Shown here piece by piece: positions 9,176-62,937 of a stretch of 64,000 nucleotides of DNA; the stretch's first letter is position 1; every line of letters begins with the position of its first letter. The DNA lies in assembly GCA_015063695.1 (NCBI GenBank), contig SVTQ01000003.1, positions 1-64,000 of the forward strand, given 5' to 3'. This DNA comes from Oscillospiraceae bacterium (lineage in GTDB: Bacteria > Bacillota > Clostridia > Oscillospirales > CAG-272). Both the position numbers and the translations under genes were made by a program. The notes under the pieces are model-generated. The model was not told the DNA's origin and did no database searches. It saw only the letters and a list, made by a program, of their open reading frames with translations.

Positions 9176-9300
9176 GTAGGGGCGAACTGTGTTCGCCCGC
9201 CCGCAACGTCAACGTTTCACCAAACAACATCCCTATTTGGGTAGGGGCGGATTCCATTCCGCTTTACCATTTATCGTAGGGGCGGATTCCATATCCGCCC
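9176..9300 (+). repeat. Three GTAGGGG palindromic elements before aconitase X
   Basis: Copies at 9176-9200 (core GAACTGTGTTC), 9241-9262 (partly degraded) and 9276-9300 (core GGATTCCATATCC). Each begins GTAGGGGCG; the intact copies end in CGCCC. This and the preceding RNA and array account for the whole 8835-9331 gap. Confidence 0.85.
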
Positions 9301-19440: not shown

Positions 19441-19690
19441 TTATTAGCCTTCTCCAGTGGGAGAAGGTGTTACCGAAGGTGACGGATGAGGTGTTCCGTA
19501 ACATCAAAGTAACTCCTCATCCACCACGCGAGAACCCCAAAAGTCGCAAGGACTTTTGAGGACCCCAGCACGCGAGAACCCCAAAAGTCGCAAGGACTTT
19601 TGAGGACCCCAGCACGTGGTCCCCCTTCTGAGAACCCCAAACAGACAAGTCTGTTTGAGGACCCCAGCCTTCTCCCGCAGGAGAAGGCTA
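19441..19690. repeat. Composite block of CCTTCTCC elements with three inserted GAACCCC elements
   Basis: One CCTTCTCC element runs forward (19446-19500, with TTACC-GAA-GGTGA and GGATGAGG). A second runs in reverse from CTCCTCATCC (19513) to GAGAAGGCTAA (19690). Its inner palindrome CCACG/CGTGG is split by two tandem 44-base units, each holding a GAACCCC element (19532-19566 and 19576-19610, core AAGTC-GCAAG-GACTT). A third GAACCCC element (19632-19665, core CAGAC-AA-GTCTG) sits inside the CCCTTCT arm. No gene is seen between 19333 and 19888. Confidence 0.8.
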
Positions 19691-24197: not shown

Positions 24198-24454
24198 GTA
24201 GGGGCGGATTCCATATCCGCCCGCGATATGTTTGCCTTACGGCAAACTCGATATAATCCCTTGCGGGATTTCGATATGTCCCCTTTGGGGACGCGATATG
24301 TTCGCTTCGCGAACGCGAAATACCAGACCAACATCCGATCCGTAGGGGCGAGCATTGCTCGCCCGCGATATGCGCCAAAGGCGCGCGATATAACCTCATT
24401 TCATTCGGTTGCGATATGTCCCCCTTGGGGACGCGATATGTTCGCTTCGCGAAC
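24198..24454 (+). repeat. Two GTAGGGG elements, each followed by a four-unit GATAT hairpin array
   Basis: The whole 24154-24481 gap is filled by this block. GTAGGGG elements: 24198-24224 and 24342-24366. First array: GTTTGCC (24230-24247), AATCCC (24255-24270), GTCCCC (24278-24292), GTTCGC (24300-24314). Second: GCGCC (24372-24384), a poor AACC/GGTT pair (24392-24410), GTCCCC (24418-24432), GTTCGC (24440-24454). Every hairpin is preceded by GATAT. The last unit ends 16 bases before the AAAGG site of the next gene. Confidence 0.9.
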
Positions 24455-24481
24455 GTGAAACACCCCCGAAAGGAAATATAA

Positions 24482-29360: not shown

Positions 29361-29468
29361 GGGAGGATATGGAATCCTCCCCTACGAAAAAATTACGTCC
29401 TTACCTCACGGTATAACATCGAATAACATCATCATTAACCGTAGGGGAGGGGTTTGGTCCTCCCGCCC
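29361..29468. repeat. Two GTAGGGGAGG elements
   Basis: 29361-29385 (reverse, core GGATATGGAATCC) and 29441-29468 (forward, core GGGTTTGGTCC with arms AGG/CCT). A degraded copy lies at 29309-29336. These belong to the AGG-type subset, the same as the copies inside the transposase gene. Confidence 0.75.
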
Positions 29469-34125: not shown

Positions 34126-34220
34126 TCCTTGAATACGACACAAAACGACAAAAACTATTGAATTATATTTATATATGTGATATAATAATCTATAATTGTG
34201 CGAAAAATAATTGCATACCC

Positions 34221-34335
34221 GTAGAGGCGAACTGTGTTCGCCCGCGATATGTTCGCATAGCGAACTCGATATGTCCTCTTTGAGGACTCGATATATTTGC
34301 CTCTTTGAGGCAAATTCGATATGCCGCTTCGCGGC
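34221..34335 (+). repeat. GTAGAGG element and four-unit GATAT hairpin array in the capA leader
   Basis: GTAGGGG-type element (one base changed) 34221-34245, core GAACTGTGTTC. Units: GTTCGC-ATA (34251-34265), GTCCTC-TTT (34273-34287), ATTTGCCTC-TTT (34295-34315) and GCCGC-TTC (34323-34335). Linkers are TCGATAT. The last hairpin ends 7 bases before the GGAGG site of the next gene. Confidence 0.9.
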
Positions 34336-38658: not shown

Positions 38659-39234
38659 TTATTCCCCTTTAAAAATATATTTGTAATACCACCGCATGGG
38701 GTTTTCGTAAATGTACCTTCTTCTCGTTTCGTAATCTTCTTTGTCGCGTACAACGTGTTCGGCATATGATCTTTGGAAAATTTTCTCCACACTTAATCGT
38801 TGCTTACAAATTCTTGAGGTGAGCGACTTAAACGCACAAACTACATCATTCAAGGTAGGGGAGGGGCTTGCTCCTCCCGCTTCCACATCACCATGCAAAT
38901 ATATAATTGCATGAATGTGGTCGGGCATTATTACGTAATCTTCAACGGTAACAGTCGTAAATCTTGTTGTAATTAAATGTAATTGTTCTTTTACAATCTC
39001 ACCGCAAGGTTTCAATCTGATTTGAAATTCGGGAGGAGCAAGCCCCTCCCCTACCATAGAGAGATTGCGTCTCGACGTTGTTAGTTTATCGCCATCGGAG
39101 GTGATGTTCACGATCTCCGATAAAACCTGCATTCTGTCTCTTGTGCAGATCGTAATGAAATAAGCTCCTTCCCGGCTATAATCGAAGTCTCTCAGTCGTG
39201 TGGGCTTGCGCTGTGGTAAAACGTTCTCCATCAT
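38659..39234 (-). CDS. REP-associated tyrosine transposase (RAYT, Y1/IS200-like)
   Basis: A 191-aa protein of the Y1 transposase superfamily. It has the usual opening REGAYFITICTRDR, the HUH motif in MPDHIHAII, and the late segment YAEHVVRDKEDYETRRRYIYENP that includes the candidate tyrosine. RAYTs are single-domain relatives of IS200/IS605 transposases that act on nearby REP palindromes and are usually single copy. Two in-frame stretches, VGEGLAPPE and AGGASPSPT, are encoded by GTAGGGG elements (39031-39054 and 38855-38880). The start overlaps the tatD stop (ATGA), so it is coupled to the housekeeping operon. No terminal repeats of a classic insertion sequence are seen. Confidence 0.9.
   Translation of the reverse strand: MMENVLPQRKPTRLRDFDYSREGAYFITICTRDRMQVLSEIVNITSDGDKLTTSRRNLSMVGEGLAPPEFQIRLKPCGEIVKEQLHLITTRFTTVTVEDYVIMPDHIHAIIYLHGDVEAGGASPSPTLNDVVCAFKSLTSRICKQRLSVEKIFQRSYAEHVVRDKEDYETRRRYIYENPMRWYYKYIFKGE
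38855..38880 (+). repeat. GTAGGGG element inside the transposase gene (distal copy)
   Basis: Arms GTAGGGGAGG and CCTCCCGC around core GGCTTGCTC. On the coding strand it is read as AGGASPSPT. It is inverted with respect to the copy at 39031. Confidence 0.9.
39031..39054 (-). repeat. GTAGGGG element inside the transposase gene (proximal copy)
   Basis: Same core as the copy at 38855, opposite orientation, 150 bases away. Read in frame as VGEGLAPP. Confidence 0.9.
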
Positions 39235-40016
39235 ATTCCAAACAGCCTTTTCGTATTCTCCACCGTTGCCTTCGCAACCGTTTCATCATCATATCCCATT
39301 GCTTCTGCAAGGGCTGTGAGGGTATGGAACATATACGCAGAGTAATTTATCTTTCCCCTGTGAGGAACGGGAGGAAGGTAAGGACAGTCAGTCTCAATGA
39401 GAATTCTGTCAAGGGGAACGGATGCCGCCGCGCGCTTTACACTGTTTGCGTTCTTGTATGAAACGGGGCCGCCGAAGGAGATGTACCACCCGAGGTCAAG
39501 CAGCTCCCTCGCCATTTCCGCGCTTCCGCTGAAAGAGTGGAAAACACCCTTTACGCCCTTGTATTTTTTCACTATCTCAAGGCTGTCCCCGTGGGCATCC
39601 CTGTCGTGAACTATAACGGGCAGATCGTGGCGAAGTGCCATTTCTATCTGCTTTTCGAAGAAATAGTGCTGTCTTTCCTTCATGGTGCCGTCATAGTGGT
39701 AGTCAAGACCTATCTCGCCTATGGCAACCACCTTTTTGTGGGCGAGAGTTTCTTCAACGAAGGAGAGCTCACACTCAATTTCGTTCTCGTCAAGCTCCTG
39801 GCAGTCGTTTGGATGGTAACCTATTGCCGCATATACGTTTTCGTATTTTTCTGCAAGCTCAAGAGTAGTCAAAATATTCTTTCTTTTTGTCGCCACGTTG
39901 ATAACGGCTTCAACGCCTGCATCAAAGGATAAACGAAGGGCGGCATCTCTGCCGCCCTCGAATTCCTCTCTGAACCTTCTGTCATCATAGTGGGCATGAG
40001 AGTCTATAAGTTTCAT
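39231..40016 (-). CDS. tatD: TatD-family metal-dependent deoxyribonuclease
   Basis: A 261-aa TIM-barrel hydrolase. Metal ligands are seen in DSHAHYD, GEIGLDYHYD, VIVHDRDAH, GVFHSFSG and ETDCPYL. TatD proteins cut DNA and may also act on D-amino-acyl groups. It follows metG by 11 bases, the same order as metS-yabD in Bacillus subtilis, and overlaps the RAYT gene by four bases. Length is normal. Confidence 0.95.
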   Translation of the reverse strand: MKLIDSHAHYDDRRFREEFEGGRDAALRLSFDAGVEAVINVATKRKNILTTLELAEKYENVYAAIGYHPNDCQELDENEIECELSFVEETLAHKKVVAIGEIGLDYHYDGTMKERQHYFFEKQIEMALRHDLPVIVHDRDAHGDSLEIVKKYKGVKGVFHSFSGSAEMARELLDLGWYISFGGPVSYKNANSVKRAAASVPLDRILIETDCPYLPPVPHRGKINYSAYMFHTLTALAEAMGYDDETVAKATVENTKRLFGI

Positions 40017-43245: not shown

Positions 43246-43316
43246 GTAGGGGAGGGGCTCGCTCCTCCCGTTTTAATTGAACAAAAAGTCCGTAGGAGAG
43301 AGCCTTGGTCCTCCCG
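43246..43316 (+). repeat. Two GTAGGGG-type elements with a duplicated gene tail
   Basis: Elements 43246-43270 (core GGCTCGCTCC) and 43292-43316 (changed GTAGGAGAG start). Each is followed by TTTT(C)AATTRAACAAAAAGTC; the second of these is the end of the methyltransferase gene, so about 46 bases including the end of the gene have been duplicated. Confidence 0.75.
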
Positions 43317-47699: not shown

Positions 47700-48821
47700 A
47701 TGGAAAGAAGAGTAAATATCGGTATCATCGGCTTCGGAAGCATGGGCAAGACCCACGCATCCTGCATTGAAGATATGAAGTATTACTACAGCGGTCTCGG
47801 TATTGAACCTGTTCTTTACGGAGTGTGCGCATCGAGCCCCGAAAACAGCAAAAAGTACGCTGAAAAATACGGTTTTGAAAGAGCATTTTCCTCTCCCGAG
47901 GAGCTTATAATCTGTCCTGAAATCGACGTTGTTGATATCTGCACGCCCAATATTTTTCACTATGAACAGCTTAAAGCGGCAATAGCGGCAGGTAAGCATA
48001 TCTACTGCGAGAAGCCCCTCTGCACGACCCCCGAGCAGGCTGAAGAGATATGCACTCTCGCAGAGAAAACAAACTCCGTGTGCGCGGTAGTTTTCAATAC
48101 GAGATTTCATCTTCCCGTTATCCGTGCTAAAGAGATTATCGAAAAGGGCGGTATAGGTGATATCGTCTCCTTTAACGTTTCCTTTCTCCACAGCAGCGCG
48201 ACCGATGTTAACAGAACGGGCTGGAAGCAGGATAAAACGGTCTGCGGCGGCGGTGTTCTTTTCGATCTCGGGTCCCATGCCGTTGACATGACAAGATACC
48301 TCTGCGGTGATTTTGAAAAGGTCTTCGGTAAAAGCCAGATAGCGTTCCCCGAAAGACGGAGCTTTGACGGCCGTGAAAACTGGAAAACAAATGCGGACGA
48401 GACTTTCTATATTATCGCCGAGCTTAAGAATAAAGCTGTGGGAAATATTACCGTCAGCAAGATACATCAGGGAACAAACGACGATTTCAATTTTGAAATA
48501 TACGGAACAAAGGGAAGTCTTAAGTTCGGACTTATGGACCCGAACTGGCTCTACTATTATGATGCAACAGCTCCCGAAAAAGTAAGAGGAGTTACAAGAA
48601 TTGAGTGCGTCGGCCGTTTTGATTTTCCCGCAACGGGATTTCCCGGTGCCAAAGCAACAGTAGGCTGGCTCCGCGGTCATATCGGCTCCATGCACAACTT
48701 CCTCGAGGGAGTGGCTGAGAATAAGGCAGTTGAGCCTTCCTTCAGAGACGGTGCAGTCGTTCAGAGAATACTCGATGCGGCTTACCGCTCCGACGAGATC
48801 GGCGGATTTATGCAGTGCTGA
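47700..48821 (+). CDS. Gfo/Idh/MocA-family oxidoreductase
   Basis: A 373-aa NAD(P)-dependent sugar or cyclitol dehydrogenase. The Rossmann motif GIIGFGSMGKTHA opens the protein, EKPLCTTPEQA is the conserved lysine site, and GGVLFDLGSHAVDM is the C-terminal domain motif. The substrate is unknown. GGGAGG (47689-47694) sets the ATG at 47700. The last residues (MQC) and the stop codon are encoded by the first hairpin of the following array, so the array has reached into the gene. Confidence 0.9.
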   Translation: MERRVNIGIIGFGSMGKTHASCIEDMKYYYSGLGIEPVLYGVCASSPENSKKYAEKYGFERAFSSPEELIICPEIDVVDICTPNIFHYEQLKAAIAAGKHIYCEKPLCTTPEQAEEICTLAEKTNSVCAVVFNTRFHLPVIRAKEIIEKGGIGDIVSFNVSFLHSSATDVNRTGWKQDKTVCGGGVLFDLGSHAVDMTRYLCGDFEKVFGKSQIAFPERRSFDGRENWKTNADETFYIIAELKNKAVGNITVSKIHQGTNDDFNFEIYGTKGSLKFGLMDPNWLYYYDATAPEKVRGVTRIECVGRFDFPATGFPGAKATVGWLRGHIGSMHNFLEGVAENKAVEPSFRDGAVVQRILDAAYRSDEIGGFMQC

Positions 48822-49059
48822 CGCACTGATGATATACAACGGCGTTGCCGTTGGTGATATACAAAGCTTGCGCTTTGGTGATATACAACGCTTCGCGTTG
48901 ATGATATACAACGGCGTTGCCGTTGATGATATACAGTGCTGATGCACTGATGATATACAAAGCTTGCGCTTTGATGATATACAACGGCGTTGCCGTTGAT
49001 GATATACAGTGCTGACGCACTGATGATATACAACGCTTCGCGTTGATTTGCTTCGCAAA
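48813..49059 (+). repeat. Eleven-unit hairpin array with ATGATATA linkers
   Basis: Hairpins in order: CAGTGC (48813), CAACGGC (48837), CAAAGC (48862), CAACGC (48886), CAACGGC (48909), CAGTGC (48934), CAAAGC (48958), CAACGGC (48982), CAGTGC (49007), CAACGC (49031) and TTTGC (49047). Only four arm sequences are used before the last one, so units have been copied. Linkers are RTGATATA. The array begins inside the oxidoreductase gene and ends one base from the AGGAGG of coaE. Confidence 0.95.
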
Positions 49060-62848: not shown

Positions 62849-62937
62849 AGCCTTCTCCTGAGGGAGAAGGGGGACCGCGGCGGGGTCCTCAAAAGTCCTT
62901 GTGACTTTTGGGGTTCTCGCGATGGCGGTGGGTGAGG
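62849..62937 (+). repeat. CCTTCTCC element with a nested GAACCCC element
   Basis: AGCCTTCTCC-TGAG-GGAGAAGG (62849-62870) is followed by GGACCGC..GCGGTGG. Between these two arms is a reverse GAACCCC element (62882-62916, core AAAGTC-CTTGT-GACTTT). Lies between tig and clpP. The rest of the 62809-63128 gap holds the clpP ribosome site and AT-rich sequence in which I see nothing but the hairpin at 63071. Confidence 0.8.

Follow-up and report, generated by a model that had tools for sequence, protein, structure and literature searches.

REP-associated tyrosine transposases (RAYTs, or TnpAREP proteins) recognise GTAG plus a hairpin on one strand and co-evolve with their REPs (PMC8266576). In REPtrons, such as that of E. 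coli TnpAREP (PMC8266576), the tnpAREP gene is flanked by REPs, and in REPINs two inverse REPs form a unit with GTAG outward (PMC3116915). Short palindromes read in frame within proteins, namely the Rickettsia palindromic elements and other REPs inside ORFs, were also described, together with repeats that extend over RAYT gene ends (PMC3733652). According to the main text of Quentin et al. 2018 (PMC6006769), the tnpAREP genes of subclass 2.4 (Bertels group 4; motifs NH[IFV]H, WQ and YIxNNP in Table 1) carry REPs inserted without disruption of the frame and generally located between HuH and Y, which may have little impact on the protein and are read as harmless. In-frame REPs within tnpAREP genes are thus already published, and this membership feature of subclass 2.4 is present in the gene described here.

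The window, i.e. the whole analysed stretch of 64,000 nucleotides, contains at 38659..39234 (minus strand) a gene encoding a protein of 191 aa with the HUH residues H106 and H108, Q154 and the tyrosine Y174, all four of which are invariant in a 64-sequence alignment. The protein matches the profile NF047646 (REP-associated tyrosine transposase; E 7e-18, with a score under the model's own cutoff) and, weakly, Y1_Tnp. The top PDB fold match of its predicted structure (pLDDT 87.6) is 4er8, the E. coli TnpAREP-REP complex with a bound REP hairpin; no meaningful match was obtained in the viral fold library. By its HUH motif, catalytic tyrosine, REP-transposase profile and fold match, the gene is a RAYT (TnpAREP) gene. 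Its motifs are DHIH, FQ and YIYENP, and the family consensus is NHIH, WQ and YIxxNP. The window family resembles subclass 2.4, as characterised in the main text of Quentin et al., in its in-frame GTAG REPs, in the use of a loop after the HuH, and in length, and its motifs appear similar. The TGA stop of a tatD-like gene (39231..40016, minus strand) overlaps the RAYT start codon as ATGA at 39231-39234. This overlap, from which the first-pass annotation deduced a coupling of the two genes, is real, but the coupling is without support as a meaningful feature, because the tatD-like neighbour is specific to its own genome: among the RAYT loci L001-L147 it occurs only at the window's own locus (L001, with the duplicates L007 and L118). 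A general tatD coupling is thereby ruled out, and the neighbour is a chance one.

Two REPs lie within the coding sequence. The REP at site 1 (39030..39055, minus strand) is GGTAGGGGAGGGGCTTGCTCCTCCCG on the coding strand, with its GTAG starting at 39054; it is read as VGEGLAPP (residues 61-68) and, in the structural model, falls in a loop, modelled with low confidence, that links strands 39-43 and 70-74 on the N-terminal side of the HUH. The REP at site 2 (38854..38879, plus strand) has the 26 nt of site 1 on the opposite strand, with its GTAG starting at 38855; it is read as AGGASPSPT (residues 119-127) and is placed in the loop that joins the HUH strand 106-113 to the helix 128-147. The two sites are exact reverse complements over 26 nt (100% complementary) and are separated by a spacer of 150 nt (38880..39029, minus strand), which encodes the middle of the protein including the HUH. 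Each element folds singly as a hairpin with GTAG 5' of a short palindrome and is open in frame; both are GTAG REPs. The gene, its frame, both peptides and the inverted arrangement 150 nt apart had been correctly recognised in the first-pass annotation, whereas its coordinates (39031-39054 and 38855-38880) differ slightly from those of the exact pair. A scan for promoters and terminators yielded nothing particular to the in-gene elements.

The inverted-repeat score between the two regions of the window gene is 26, compared to a mean of 8.8 and a maximum of 18 in 500 synonymous recodings with the protein kept fixed. The window contains 26 occurrences of GTAGGGG versus 4.7 expected, a number reached in none of 100 shuffles. 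A chance origin of the elements is ruled out by the recodings and by the GTAGGGG excess.

Like REPtrons, the window gene has cognate GTAG REPs in cis, but these lie within the coding sequence, whereas those of a REPtron lie beside the gene. The pair shares with REPINs the two inverse REPs with GTAG outward; however, its spacer (~140-150 nt) is part of the gene, and no copies of the spacer outside RAYT genes were found by tblastn in the same genome. The pair is REPIN-like in layout, but the dispersed units expected of a mobile REPIN were not seen in this genome. The elements of PMC3733652 are likewise read in frame, but they sit in many unrelated genes, in contrast to the two fixed sites in the gene of the presumed enzyme observed here. 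The family also differs from IS200/IS605 elements, which have terminal hairpins bordering the gene and many near-identical copies: the RAYT paralogues of the window's genome are 37-75% identical, and most pair-bearing genes lack a REP in the 500 bp outside. In comparison with the main-text description of subclass 2.4, the REPs of the window family form an inverted matched pair, one site precedes the HuH, the copies co-vary with REP type and flanking REPs are mostly absent. Supplements and most subscription papers aside, we found in the literature no account of a matched inverted pair, a pre-HuH site, co-variation or exclusion of flanking REPs, and the matched, co-evolving pair with a pre-HuH site appears to be new.

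The genome of the window contains five RAYTs, and all five carry an inverted GTAG pair at the same two sites. Four kinds of REP are found among them: GTAGGGGAGGGGCTTGCTCCTCCCG (contigs C34 and C14), GTAGGGGGCGACGTCCTCGACGCCCCG (C13), GTAGGGGAGGATATCATCCTCCCG (C44) and GTAGGGACAGGCGTCCTCGACTGTCCG (C19). The two copies are identical within each of the four intact genes; the C19 gene (G000:C19:20287-20861; L005, L006) is broken across frames, and its two REPs, which have diverged, match imperfectly. A REP census was performed on a 412-kb sample of this genome, window included. Outside the pairs of the window gene and the C14 gene, 11 more window-type copies with at most one mismatch were found in this genome. 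Within the window, a dispersed REP of the window-gene type with one mismatch is located at 43246..43270, and REPs of related type at 29441..29465 and, more diverged, at 43292..43316 (all on the plus strand). The relationship of these three to the in-gene elements had already been noted in the first-pass annotation; a fourth element included there, at 29361, shares only the lower stem and differs in the inner stem and loop.

The in-gene elements were compared among 127 distinct RAYT frames, mostly from Clostridia and including the window's own paralogues; they were picked by similarity to the window RAYT and many of the loci are MAG contigs, and the pair-bearing fraction does not describe RAYTs in general. 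A matched in-gene pair (score at least 14) was found in 96 of the 127 frames. The elements occupy the same sites and are in frame, so that the original observation holds and is broader than first described. None of 960 synonymous shuffles equalled the pair score of the gene concerned, and a score of at least 20 was reached by 85% of own pairs versus 11% of cross-gene pairs. The GTAG of site 1 is in phase 0 in all 93 genes, that of site 2 is in one phase in 82 genes and in a second phase in 10, and GTAG points outward in nearly all pair genes. Pair-bearing isolates include Chakrabartyella piscis and Christensenella intestinihominis, and Monoglobus pectinilyticus was added by inspection. Relatives on plasmids and phages are few and distant, and M. 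pectinilyticus, with an in-gene pair, is among them; viral contigs gave pattern matches but no relative by tblastn. The breadth beyond Bacillota rests on few loci, such as L104 (Anaerolineales), which has a double-foot element at site 2. Perfect double-foot palindromes (GTAG...CTAC) were observed in frame at site 2 of L104, L136 and L138, distant relatives that share this form of REP with subclass 2.4 as presented in the main text of PMC6006769. The RAYTs L020, L062 and L141 contain several tandem copies of the REP-encoded peptide (e.g. GSPLPIK repeats in L062).

A GTAG REP within 500 bp outside the frame is absent for 77 of 94 pair genes and for 5 of the 26 others; 21 of these 26 genes without an in-gene pair have REPs outside. 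The contrast has p 5e-9 before tree correction and the tree leaves two supported independent comparisons, so that an exclusion of flanking REPs by the in-gene pair is not established. At some loci (L029, L087 and L114) one REP is inside the gene and its partner just outside. The impression is that of a REPtron whose flanking pair has been taken into the gene.

Dispersed copies were compared in 24 genomes, of which 14 were picked for a window-type RAYT. Window-type REPs occur in all 14, as the choice of these genomes already ensures for at least the in-gene copies, and 5 of the other 10 have none; one exception (G175) has 28 window-type copies, a pair of them inside another of its RAYT matches. 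R-type REPs number 77, 38, 9, 14, 4 and 36 in the genomes with an R-type RAYT, two of which (G181 and G175) were assigned to this class by the position of REPs within their RAYT matches; most other genomes have none (p 0.001). A third REP type showed no clear contrast between genomes with and without a matching RAYT. Dispersed copies of a given REP type thus tend to be more numerous in genomes with a RAYT of the type, in line with the earlier suggestion that the enzyme is a candidate for spreading the family. Judged by eye from coordinates, dispersed R-type pairs in G181, G231 and G285 also have the GTAG-outward layout, with shorter spacers. With up to 3 mismatches allowed, two genomes, G022 (98% complete) and G261 (93%), have no copy besides their in-gene pair. 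The window's genome contains no further exact copy of the C44 type, the nearest ones differing at 2 paired bases. Because of these cases, mere hits from an abundant repeat cannot account for the in-gene pairs.

Homologues with the same peptide and synonymous DNA that has lost the palindrome would be expected if the peptides were conserved for protein function and the palindrome were a by-product. This explanation draws on the V-G that opens site 1 in 93 of 93 genes and the P-T that closes site 2 in most; however, these residues are GTAG and CTAC read in fixed phase, and the other positions vary widely, with up to 14 different residues. Moreover, genes grouped by identical or near-identical peptide, and scored for codon identity at identical residues, keep the DNA as well as the peptide, and the refutation proposed in the first-pass annotation fails. 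Codon identity in the elements versus the rest of the gene is 0.92 versus 0.50 in the VGEGLAPP group (18 genes), 0.95 versus 0.43 in the VGRGLAPA group (9 genes), 0.96 versus 0.55 in the VGTGVLDCP group (4 genes) and 0.92 versus 0.49 in the VGxGAxDxP group (10 genes). Protein-only conservation is ruled out for these four peptide groups, and as an explanation of the family it is very improbable. The stems of 31 distinct 27-nt elements are 98.8% paired, with a covariation of 0.377 versus 0.097 in shuffles (relatedness ignored). The two copies are identical in 42 of 93 pair genes. The stem differences between non-identical copies comprise 28 compensated on both sides, 5 that retain pairing through G-T, 16 that disrupt a stem pair in one copy and 4 unpaired double changes; GTAG is the same in both copies throughout the counted genes, genes without GTAGGG in either copy being left out. 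Since stem changes are compensated where the copies differ, each hairpin is held beyond the mere match of the two copies, and it is the hairpin rather than the peptide that is conserved. As judged from these comparisons, what is maintained in the in-gene pair is the hairpin, as DNA (or RNA). The 27-nt elements keep an unpaired purine-purine position (G/A) in the middle of the stem, a feature that recalls the irregularity in E. coli REP stems.

We favour, with a probability of about 55%, the reading that the window gene is a self-contained "internal" REPtron, carrying its own cognate inverted REP pair in its coding sequence. Its matched REP hairpins, oriented with GTAG outward like those of a REPIN, would be accommodated in two loops of the RAYT that tolerate almost any peptide; the pair would be kept as a DNA (or RNA) hairpin and would change in step with the RAYT's REP type. 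By replacing the flanking REPs of ordinary REPtrons, it would prevent recombination and transfer from separating enzyme and substrate, and on arrival in a new genome the gene could found a new REP family. We infer that the window RAYT binds and cuts its in-gene hairpins, that the pair serves as a master substrate and that the linkage is the selected benefit. Against this reading, about a fifth of the relatives presumably work without an in-gene pair, the 16 one-sided stem changes disrupt a stem pair in one copy, and for some REP types no matching RAYT was found in the genome that contains them (e.g. R-type REPs in G231). The more extended proposal, in which the coding sequence doubles as substrate, the co-evolving pair joins enzyme and target heritably, and the hairpins seed REP families and possibly restrain synthesis, is put forward tentatively, at somewhat less than even odds.

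Near to the published reading of subclass 2.4, in which Quentin et al. (PMC6006769, main text) judge such insertions harmless, is the alternative that functionless REPs entered tolerant loops, were inherited, and owe their regularity to template switching (quasi-palindrome correction) or to conversion from dispersed copies. Both sites are indeed loops in the predicted structure, the peptides vary widely, REPs turn up now and then in other long ORFs, and template switching, whether within a hairpin or from one to another, could make the copies alike without selection. Nevertheless, GTAG is invariant and its orientation and phase are fixed across divergent genes, the REP type changes in both copies together, the pair persists as the sole copies found in a genome, and REPs inside other long ORFs are few in the 412-kb sample compared to two in each of the five RAYTs; we therefore consider such passive insertion unlikely. 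Autoregulation, in which the RAYT binds the hairpins or a 26-bp duplex in its mRNA, or RNase III cuts that duplex, and its own synthesis is limited, seems doubtful to us. The predicted fold of the window RAYT mRNA pairs the two sites fully (z -5.2), and in-gene pairs persist where no dispersed copies were found, as a role in cis predicts. The same holds for every gene whose two copies are identical. However, a duplex needs only matching sites, yet the hairpins are kept when the copies differ, as seen in the 28 compensated changes, and GTAG is invariant, which together point to recognition of a single hairpin; genes with flanking REPs also manage without an in-gene duplex.

The in-gene pairs bear on the spread of REPs and on the reason for the retention of RAYTs. 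With enzyme and presumed substrate in one reading frame, about 100 naturally matched pairs can be read from gene sequences, and gene and probable substrate appear to evolve as one piece. Swaps among the paralogues of one genome would put REP specificity to the test, and synonymous recoding would separate a substrate role, feedback and passive insertion.

Other repeats were also observed in the window. The REP type GTAGGGGCGGATTCYATATCCGCCC (window positions 9276, 24198 and 26462) is one of the most frequent in the genome sample and is carried by none of the five RAYTs, and a RAYT of M. pectinilyticus (L151) carries exactly the GTAGGGGCGGATTCYATATCCGCCC pair in frame. The GTAGGGGCGGATTCYATATCCGCCC REPs are possibly orphans, whose enzyme was lost or lies in a missing part of the genome. 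Arrays of other short palindromes, unrelated to GTAG REPs, are located at 48809-49047, 34220-34319, 24269-24464, 19527-19610 and 62882-62921, with sequences such as GATATACAACG..., GATATGTTCGC... and AACCCCAAAAGTC....
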